DNA of 64,000 nucleotides, from contig NC_008027.1 in assembly GCF_000026105.1 (NCBI RefSeq), positions 1 through 64,000 on the forward strand. Direction: 5' to 3'. This document shows positions 28,054 to 29,476 of the stretch, in pieces. This stretch comes from Pseudomonas entomophila L48 (GTDB lineage: Bacteria; Pseudomonadota; Gammaproteobacteria; Pseudomonadales; Pseudomonadaceae). The notes beneath the pieces were generated by a model. That model ran no database searches, had not been told where the DNA came from, and was given only the letters and a program-made list of their open reading frames with translations. Every line of letters starts with the position of its first letter. Within the stretch, counting starts at the first letter, position 1. Both the position numbers and the translations under genes were made by a program.

Positions 28054-28611
28054 ATGGTGAGCAGTTGGCGTGTGCAGCAAGCCGCGCGCGAGGTGAAGGC
28101 GGGTGCGGTGATCGCCTATCCGACGGAAGCGGTCTGGGGCCTGGGCTGCGACCCGTGGAACGAGGACGCGGTGTATCGCCTGCTGGCGCTCAAGTCGCGG
28201 CCTGTGGATAAAGGGCTGATCCTGATCGCCGACAACATCCGCCAGTTCGACTTTCTGTTCGAGGATTTCCCGCAGGATTGGATTGATCGCATGAGCGCTA
28301 CTTGGCCGGGGCCGAACACCTGGCTGGTGCCGCACCAGGACCTGTTGCCCGAGTGGGTGACCGGGCAGCACGACACCGTGGCGCTGCGGGTCAGCGATCA
28401 CCCACAGGTGCGCGAGCTGTGCGCGTTGGTCGGGCCGTTGATCTCTACCTCCTGCAACCCGGCCGGGCGGCCGGCGGCCAAGAGTAGGTTGCGGGTGGAG
28501 CAGTACTTCCACAACGAGCTGGACATGGTGCTGGGTGGGGCGTTGGGTGGGCGGAAGAACCCGAGCCTGATTCGCGACCTGGCGACCGGCGAGGTTGTGC
28601 GCCCGGGCTGA
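28054..28611 (+). CDS. tsaC: Threonylcarbamoyl-AMP synthase (TsaC/YrdC)
   Basis: Makes L-threonylcarbamoyladenylate from threonine, bicarbonate and ATP for the t6A37 modification of ANN-reading tRNAs. The 185-residue single-domain form matches TsaC (YrdC) rather than the longer Sua5. Family residues are [40 protein letters not shown] and the substrate loop [13 protein letters not shown]. The dprA-tsaC order is the same as in other gammaproteobacteria. An exact DnaA box (28203-28211) lies within. Confidence 0.95.
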
Positions 28612-28640
28612 TACCGCTGGCGAGGGCTTCGCCCTCGTAT

Positions 28641-28722
28641 CGCGACACAAGGCCGCTCCCACAGATACAGCGCAGCTCTCAGGCTTGGCGCTGGCATCTG
28701 TGGGAGCGGCCTTGTGTCGCGA
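28641..28722. repeat. Paired REP element with accessory hairpins
   Basis: Inverted units of the CGCGACACAAGGCCGCTCCC family at 28641-28664 and 28698-28722. Small GC hairpins flank it: GAGGGCTTCGCCCTC just before and GGGCCGCAAAGCGGCCCC just after, the latter a recurrent companion of these REPs. Confidence 0.92.
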
Positions 28723-28889
28723 AAGGGCCGCAAAGCGGCCCCAGAATTCCCCGCCGATTTTTCTGATTTCCACCCAGATGGCTGCCCATTCTGAATTCAG
28801 AGAAATATCCTACGCAGTCTGTCGACCGCCATTACCTTCTCAGTGGGAACTCCTGCCTCTAGGCTCCAGACCGTCGCCGAATAACTTGG

Positions 28890-29062
28890 CGATCGGGTGT
28901 GGTAACCCGGTAACAGGAAGGTATCAGAGTCGTCTATGGCGGCTGTGCGCGGGAGGCTTTCGAGCCTGCCGGGTCTGGTACCTCCCCGGTTTACCACCCC
29001 GTGTACAGCTGCCACCCATTCGTGTGGTAACGGACGAGGTGTCAGCCCTACTCTGGTAGAGG
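28890..29062 (+). promoter_or_regulatory. Structured leader RNA candidate upstream of the DUF3077 gene
   Basis: Gene-free stretch with several compatible stems. CGGGT/ACCCG hairpin at 28894-28909. A nine-pair stem between 28938-28946 (GGCGGCTGT) and 29005-29013 (ACAGCTGCC, one G-U) encloses two hairpins: AGGCT-TTCG-AGCCT (28954-28967) and CCGGG/CCCGG (28969-28989). TTACCAC (28991-28997) is a perfect seven-base complement of GTGGTAA (29024-29030), crossing the nine-pair stem like a pseudoknot or competing with it. ACCTC (28980-28984) can pair with GAGGT at 29036-29040 or with the ribosome site GAGGT (29059-29063). Together this suggests a cis-regulatory RNA. It matches no riboswitch class I recognise. 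Confidence 0.55.
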
Positions 29063-29067
29063 TTGCC

Positions 29068-29379
29068 ATGACCAAAAAGATTGTCCCCGATCCACCACTT
29101 CCTAACACCACAACTCACCCCTTCGGCCGCTGCGACGCCGGCCACCCTCCACTCTTCACCGTAAACCCCAACATCGAAGCCCACGACGCCCTGGTACACG
29201 TAGCGCTCTACCTGCGCTGTGCCTACGACACCGGCATCAAGGCACTCGACCACCTGCGCGACGAGGGGCGTGGCATGTACTGGTCGAGCCTGCATTCGCT
29301 GGAAATGGCGGAGGGGTTGGTGGAGGCGATGCTCGATGGCATCGAGTCCGCGCCGGCAGCCGATAGGCCTGTTGGCTGA
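29068..29379 (+). CDS. DUF3077-family small protein of unknown function
   Basis: 103-residue protein with the Pseudomonas DUF3077 pattern: a Phe-Thr-Val entry (LFTVNPNIEAHDALVHVALYL) and two helices (LRCAYDTGIKALDHLRDEG and SSLHSLEMAEGLVEAMLDGI). No signal peptide or membrane segment. ATG at 29068 with GAGG six bases upstream; the open frame from 28936 would start inside the structured leader and is rejected. Single gene, preceded by about 340 bases of REP and structured leader and followed by another REP pair. No function is known to me. Confidence 0.75.
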   Translation: MTKKIVPDPPLPNTTTHPFGRCDAGHPPLFTVNPNIEAHDALVHVALYLRCAYDTGIKALDHLRDEGRGMYWSSLHSLEMAEGLVEAMLDGIESAPAADRPVG

Positions 29380-29388
29380 GCTGCCGTG

Positions 29389-29452
29389 TTCGCCGGCAAG
29401 CCGGCTCCTACGGGGGCGGCGTAATCCCTGTAGGAGCCGGCTTGCCGGCGAA
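29389..29452. repeat. Paired REP element (TTCGCCGGCAAGCCGGCTCC family)
   Basis: Inverted units with cores GCCGGCAAGCCGGCTCCTAC and GTAGGAGCCGGCTTGCCGGC around a short spacer, followed by the GGGCCGC/GCGGCCC companion hairpin. It separates the convergent DUF3077 and qor genes. Confidence 0.93.
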
Positions 29453-29476
29453 GGGCCGCAAAGCGGCCCCAGGATC

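Follow-up and report, generated by a model that had tools for sequence, protein, structure and literature searches.

The phages P1 and P7 silence icd-ant by means of C4, an antisense RNA. In satellite phage P4, the CI RNA is a small immunity RNA that is processed from a leader and has matching elements in the same transcript. In the P1 record, C4 is a 77-nt misc_RNA that follows the elements a1 and b1 and precedes a2, which lies right after c4, and b2, which lies near the start of icd; icd is annotated as an inhibitor of cell division and is overlapped by ant1 by 4 bases. P1 C4 is cut by RNase P (PMC5320573), and C4 RNA has been recorded for Proteobacteria as well as phages (PMC2864571, which PMC5320573 cites for C4 in Pseudomonadales). 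One Acinetobacter baumannii genome has 21 Group 1 C4-like RNAs, 15 of them full length; nearly all of those that were folded have the C4 structure, their a' and b' elements are variable and they are processed from a longer transcript (PMC5320573). The IsrK-orf45-anrP arrangement of Gifsy-1 (RF01394) likewise combines a short leader RNA with a read-through mRNA, a small ORF and a further gene (PMC4825925).

Here we describe a chromosomal leader of this type in Pseudomonas entomophila L48. The stretch of DNA analysed, called the window below, comprises the first 64,000 nt of contig NC_008027.1, and the module occupies 28859-29379 on the forward strand. Its upstream neighbour is tsaC (28054-28611; Pfam Sua5/YrdC), and on its other side lies an opposite-strand gene that we take to encode a quinone reductase. 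We conclude, at a probability of roughly 80%, that the leader encodes a C4-type antisense RNA that silences its own downstream small gene.

The leader contains a full-length C4 element and matching sites

An Rfam scan placed a match to RF01695 (C4 antisense RNA) at 28932-29019 (+), covering the model over its full length (1-87) at 75.9 bits (gathering cut-off 45; E 8.3e-15). RF01695 was the sole Rfam family to reach its cut-off anywhere in the window, and no riboswitch matched there at cut-off. The initial annotation of this DNA had proposed an undescribed element, and had named a match to an existing Rfam family as the finding that would speak against it; because RF01695 matches, the leader is not an undescribed RNA class.

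The individual structures that the annotation had described are present, and each corresponds to a part of the C4 anatomy. The nine-pair stem that it drew between 28938-28946 and 29005-29013, one pair of which is G-U, makes up pairs 2-10 of a 17-pair outer stem (5' arm 28937-28953, 3' arm 28998-29014; 3 of 17 pairs G-U). The two hairpins enclosed by the stem are hairpin 1 (28954-28967), with the sequence AGGCT-TTCG-AGCCT, and hairpin 2 (28968-28990), the loop of which bears b' (CTGGTACCTC, 28975-28984). The seven-base complement reported across the stem is exact: TTACCAC at 28991-28997, in the linker, is the a' element of C4, and it faces GTGGTAA at 29024-29030, the target a2, 4 bases past the C4 match. 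The recurrence of GTGGTAA further upstream (28899-28905) is also confirmed and represents a1, again an exact complement of a'. As had been suggested, ACCTC (28980-28984) can pair with GAGGT, both at 29036-29040 and at 29059-29063; the latter falls in the likely ribosome-binding site AGAGGT (29058-29063), a second partner of b' with 5 pairs.

Two longer matches to the hairpin-2 loop had been overlooked. The best b2 match, GAGGTGTCAG at 29036-29045, forms 10 pairs with b' (2 G-U; score 22) and lies 23-32 bases 5' of the start codon. The b1 element, AGGTATCAGA at 28919-28928, complements 28974-28983, overlapping b', with 10 pairs (1 G-U; score 22.5), and nearly abuts C4. By simple base shuffling of the target stretch, the a'/a2 7-mer match arose by chance in 57 of 20000 shuffles and a loop/b2 match of score 22 in 118 of 20000. 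The upstream a1b1-type target region (28859-28913), which consists of a hairpin at 28873-28893 followed by the a1 hairpin, resembles RF03163 (c4-a1b1) below cut-off (34 bits versus a gathering threshold of 46.7; E 1.4e-6); in some relatives the RF03163 score passes the cut-off, at 47.6-61 bits. The isrK model (RF01394) scored far under its cut-off in the window (20.1 versus 50). A pattern scan of 28612-29476 found neither a sigma-70 consensus promoter nor a terminator, including between a1b1 and C4.

The likeness to the C4 of P1 and P7 comprises the 17-pair outer stem, two hairpins, a' and b', a1 and b1 upstream, and a2 and b2 downstream. The order of elements is that of P1, and the spacing is similar: counted from the end of the Rfam match, the start of icd is 48 bases away and the window ATG 49, and 3 bases separate the annotated c4 from a2 in P1, compared with 4 between the C4 match and a2 in the window. 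Unlike P1 icd-ant, the window has one fused ORF, and its main b2 site lies more upstream. The window also differs in this respect from its sibling loci (described below), as its strong b2 match ends 23 bases 5' of the start codon and is not over the ribosome-binding site, which is matched by just 5 b' pairs; in 26 of the 30 loci of this genome, 8-19 bases separate the beginning of the b2 match from the start codon (for 5 of the 30 loci the start was assumed).

Folding of the leader gave a z-score of -4.34, with none of 200 shuffles reaching its fold. Taken alone, C4 folds into the cloverleaf (-48.9 kcal/mol). For the full leader, the minimum free energy is -102.7 kcal/mol, in a fold where the upstream copies bind the C4 loops, and -96.0 kcal/mol when the cloverleaf is enforced. 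The best fold thus has a1/b1 holding a'/b', suggesting that a1/b1 masks C4 until excision or relieves repression. The earlier suggestion of a switch-like or protein-bound RNA stands in part: two alternative full-leader folds exist, but a ligand- or protein-binding switch is not indicated, the pairs being those of an antisense RNA and its targets.

A stretch resembling GGTGGCAGC recurs, by eye, between a2 and b2, at 29038-29046 in the window and in the same place in siblings. Its sequence is similar to what would pair with the 3' arm of C4, and it may represent a third pairing.

C4 loci of this genome carry private pairing codes

At least 30 C4 loci exceed the cut-off in the P. entomophila genome (150 of 2217 candidates were scored), and 22 of these 30 precede DUF3077/DUF6124-type genes. 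The association also holds from the side of the genes, as 21 of 22 DUF3077 matches and 2 of 3 DUF6124 matches follow a same-strand C4 at a distance of no more than 1 kb; the one remaining match of each family is not near any listed C4. In 25 of the 30 loci, the first ORF has a (V)PDP-type start and begins 40-59 bases past C4. Six loci have a second ORF with a four-base overlap with the first, in the manner of ant1 and icd in P1.

The outer stem covaries. Overall, 97.8-100% of its cells are paired and 10-12 of the 17 pairs have changed on both sides, a count that refers to the outer stem alone; over the 30 paralogues, 97.8% are paired with both-side changes at 11 of 17 pairs, compared with 25-46% for slid controls. 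Covariation, which the initial annotation had proposed to look for, was thus found both in the stem and in the a and b pairings, and the dense set of competing pairs that it had noted before the small gene includes both stem and pseudoknot-like pairs that covary.

Pairing between the loops and their targets is specific to each locus. After identical loops had been collapsed, the 29 distinct loops of this genome paired with their own b2 at a score of 21.0, compared with 12.8 for permuted partners (z 15.3; 0 of 10000 permutations), and with their own b1 at 17.3 versus 13.0 (z 9.5). The 13 distinct a' elements behaved in the same way towards a2 (15.9 versus 10.7, z 7.6) and a1 (15.6 versus 11.4, z 6.4). 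By the loop alone, the own C4 was the best match for 21 of 29 b2 sites; when both elements were combined, and the orphan C4 at 2115142 (-) left out, 28 of 29 targets had their own C4 as the best antisense. This count includes a tie between 3291852- and 1180765+, which have identical loops and were each counted as best. For the window target, the best of the 29 was its own C4, scoring 39, and the next-best C4 scored 27. At the one exception, 619442+, the C4 is a poor match for its own b2, and two other C4s do as well or better on this target. That the codes avoid their siblings suggests action in trans.

The exception has a visible counterpart in the genome. The downstream leader and first ORF of 619442+ and 1026431+ are nearly identical, their C4 loops differ, and the C4 of 1026431+ fits the 619442+ target at least as well as the C4 of 619442+ itself. 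This natural mismatch has the pattern seen after gene conversion.

Two further features concern individual loci. The orphan C4 (2115142-2115228, -) has no matched downstream ORF and has probably decayed. In 4 of the 30 loci (4960206-, 791007-, 4962229- and 2115142-), a1b1 and C4 are separated by a terminator-like GGCGC(A)TTTTTT, so a short IsrK-like decoy RNA could be made there.

The code at one locus differs between species

To follow a single locus, we searched with the window protein. C4 was present at 26 of the 30 loci found by protein similarity (window included), the other 4 having no C4 at cut-off, and at 37 of 38 loci in a collection with one genome per species, a sample that partly overlaps the first. 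Of these 37 C4-bearing loci, 30 adjoin tsaC and have 22 distinct loops among them. At this fixed position, loops again pair better with their own targets than with permuted ones (30 species-level genomes, 22 distinct loops), both for b2 (19.7 versus 14.9, z 7.4, 0 of 10000) and for b1 (20.3 versus 14.1, z 9.3, 0 of 10000). The own loop is the best for only 6 of 22 b2 and 11 of 22 b1 sites, because many orthologues have similar loops. The a' element reads CTACCAC in 5 of the 30 tsaC-side loci, with a1 and a2 altered to match. The a and b elements of P. soli (L175) are identical to those of the window; L185 has lost a2/b2, and L202 has one a2 mismatch. The loop of L209 was not extracted and was scored zero in the 'all' set of the tsaC-locus test.

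Of 30 tsaC loci drawn separately from across the genus, 3 had the module and the other 27 showed neither the C4 pattern nor the protein within 1.5 kb after tsaC, which suggests that part of the genus has gained the module.

C4 itself is widespread in Pseudomonas. It was detected in 138 of 149 sampled genomes of the genus (137 over the cut-off), with a median of 13 copies and at least 10 copies in 91; scoring stopped at 27 copies per genome, a cap that 34 genomes reached. At the level of the order it was found in 44 of 293 genomes, with 13 copies in one genome of a sister genus, and at the level of the class in 18 of 274 genomes including this one, the others having 1-6 copies each. Private pairing extends to both wider sets. 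The 30 best genus loci (19 distinct loops) gave z 12.9, with the own C4 best in 18 of 19, and C4 loci of other genera (29 loci with 25 distinct loops) gave z 14.5 for b'-b2 (own best 23 of 25) and z 10.8 for a'-a2 (own best 14 of 18 distinct a'). The script found no ORF at L171 and L173, and b2 is also weak at L173. Only 2 of the 30 best genus loci have an xDP first ORF; the remainder include one tested Bro-N protein (with five alike), one DUF3077, one DUF6124 and many ORFs of ~52 aa.

Taken with the codes of this genome, these patterns make it somewhat more likely than not that, in Pseudomonas, a phage immunity RNA has given rise to about 30 mutually insulated antisense switches spread over the genome, each with a drifting three-copy code of its own (upstream decoy, antisense and target), many of which guard small paralogous proteins, and that the code of one locus has been rewritten between species in all three copies together.

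Among the genus loci, six (L060, L062, L065, L066, L069 and L072) precede a gene of 172-175 aa. The L062 protein is Bro-N (Pfam, 1.4e-11) and the other five are similar by eye; this is the arrangement closest to that of ant in P1. At L086, two back-to-back C4 RNAs (890-1066) and a third (1358-1445) stand before one gene. L104 and L106 encode distant relatives of the window protein without C4, beside PrrF sRNA genes.

The downstream gene encodes a conserved small protein

The gene that follows the leader (29068-29379, +) encodes a protein of 103 aa in which a KKIVPDPP start is fused, in one ORF, to a DUF6124/DUF3077-like domain. Its Pfam scores fall slightly below cut-off (DUF6124 25.6, cut-off 27; DUF3077 19.4, cut-off 21), and some close relatives carry PF19619 or PF11275. 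The domain was modelled as a helical hairpin (AF2 mean pLDDT 81). At two siblings, 1922676+ and 5194589-, the two parts are separate: a short KIVPDPP ORF ends where a window-like ORF starts, the two sharing four bases. The protein evolves under purifying selection, with a median dN/dS of 0.17 (320 of 378 pairs usable; 28 of 31 coding sequences found). DUF3077 appears as a mutated pseudogene in the available account of furfural-adapted P. putida (PMC9630843).

Searches of Pfam, PDB sequences, and PDB and viral folds returned no toxin-like family or fold for the window protein. No relatives were found by tblastn among 50,697 phage and 72,556 plasmid records, or in a scan of viral contigs. One DUF3077 second ORF was also unmatched in the phage records; the same ORF has a match at 1.3e-41 to PHROG 36471, which is a viral family of unknown function, and matches 5 viral contigs, so viral collections do not lack DUF3077 entirely. 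All of these contig matches are no more than ~250 bases from the end of the contig, where flanking host DNA would be expected. The cargo showed no relatedness to Icd or Ant1 by blastp (best E 0.24 for first ORFs and 0.20 for 21 first and second ORFs).

Proposed mechanism and alternative explanations

By analogy with P1, the most likely mechanism is that pairing of C4 with a2/b2 prevents translation of the adjacent gene, and that C4 can itself be masked by a1/b1. The transcript would run from a1-b1 through the C4 cloverleaf and a2-b2 to the start of the small DUF6124/DUF3077-type gene, and C4 would presumably be excised from it, as in P1. Pairing of a' with a2 and of b' with b2 on its own mRNA would then block ribosome entry, a block that would extend to any gene translationally coupled to the small gene. 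Were a1-b1 to pair with a'-b' instead, C4 would be masked and the gene translatable. Private a/b codes would keep the ~30 sibling C4 RNAs in one cell from cross-silencing. Membership of an RNA family is not proof of activity, and we infer transcription, excision, repression and a1-b1 relief from the analogy with P1.

Other arrangements would produce some of the same features. The module may be akin to a type I toxin-antitoxin system, with a harmful small protein and C4 as its RNA antitoxin, a tentative reading that we consider rather unlikely. An antisense RNA beside a small gene, in many copies, fits such a module, as does the annotation of P1 icd as an inhibitor of cell division. The leader of IsrK controls a cascade that ends in a toxic protein (PMC4825925), and isrK matches at cut-off fall on the a1b1 part of some C4 loci. 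These likenesses are offset by the searches for toxin-like families and folds reported above and by the 4 of 30 loci at which relatives of the protein occur without C4. The IsrK parallel has its own limits, as IsrK activates (PMC4825925) whereas C4 represses, and the window has a sub-cut-off isrK match and no terminator found between a1b1 and C4. An attenuator acting only in cis, in which the leader is never cut and a1-b1, C4 and a2-b2 serve as alternative partners whose choice of fold sets translation, would explain why a1/b1 is bound to a'/b' in the best full-leader fold, which has an advantage of 6.7 kcal/mol over the cloverleaf-enforced one, and would suit a b1 that nearly abuts C4 with no terminator found between them. 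We regard it as improbable: P1 C4 is a separate processed RNA, according to both the P1 record and the RNase P cleavage described in PMC5320573; covariation maintains a 17-pair cloverleaf stem that a cis switch alone would not need; and the sibling-avoiding codes suggest trans action.

Chromosomal C4 RNAs could also act mainly against incoming phages or satellites with C4-type leaders, and an anti-phage role has been proposed for the Acinetobacter copies (PMC5320573). DNA similar to the window C4 occurs in four phage records, and the two examined are small integrase-primase elements with C4 at cut-off; moreover, the commonest a' of this genome (CTGTCAA, 12 of 30 loci) is the complement of TTGACAG, the sequence of both a1 and a2 in P1. 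Immunity as the main function is nevertheless quite improbable in our view, as nearly every C4 has a matched a2/b2 on the next gene and the targets change together at a fixed locus, which is a local-target signature. Nor do we give much weight to a neutral remnant of a P1-like or satellite prophage, which is very improbable even though C4 is a phage RNA and a Bro-N antirepressor-type gene follows it in another genome (1.4e-11): the neighbours, tsaC and the presumed quinone reductase, are not phage genes, and both the pairings and the protein are under selection, as judged by covariation and dN/dS.

Relation to known C4 RNAs and further features of the region

Compared with the C4 of P1 and P7, the elements described here are chromosomal, number at least 30 in one genome and carry private codes. 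This setting, with many chromosomal copies before DUF3077/DUF6124-type genes, looks new, and a search of the open-licence literature that was not exhaustive found no link between C4 and DUF3077 or DUF6124. A chromosomal C4 family had already been reported in A. baumannii, the targets of which are left open in the available text (PMC5320573); here, the likely targets are the RNA's own a1/b1 and its own neighbouring gene. As these likely targets can be read from the sequence, the open question of targets becomes testable with reporters. DUF3077 and DUF6124, families of unknown function, gain a candidate regulator. The dozens of natural antisense pairs, apparently without cross-talk, should be useful for studying how the specificity of RNA pairing evolves and, if the proposal is correct, would form a natural collection of orthogonal RNA regulators.

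Further recurrent sequences surround the module. TATCCTACG, perhaps an operator, lies at 28806-28814 in the window, ~120 bases 5' of C4, and some siblings have it about as far away; other siblings share CATTTCCCAAACATACT. On either side of the module are long palindromic REP-like repeats, at 28633-28729 and 29386-29455.
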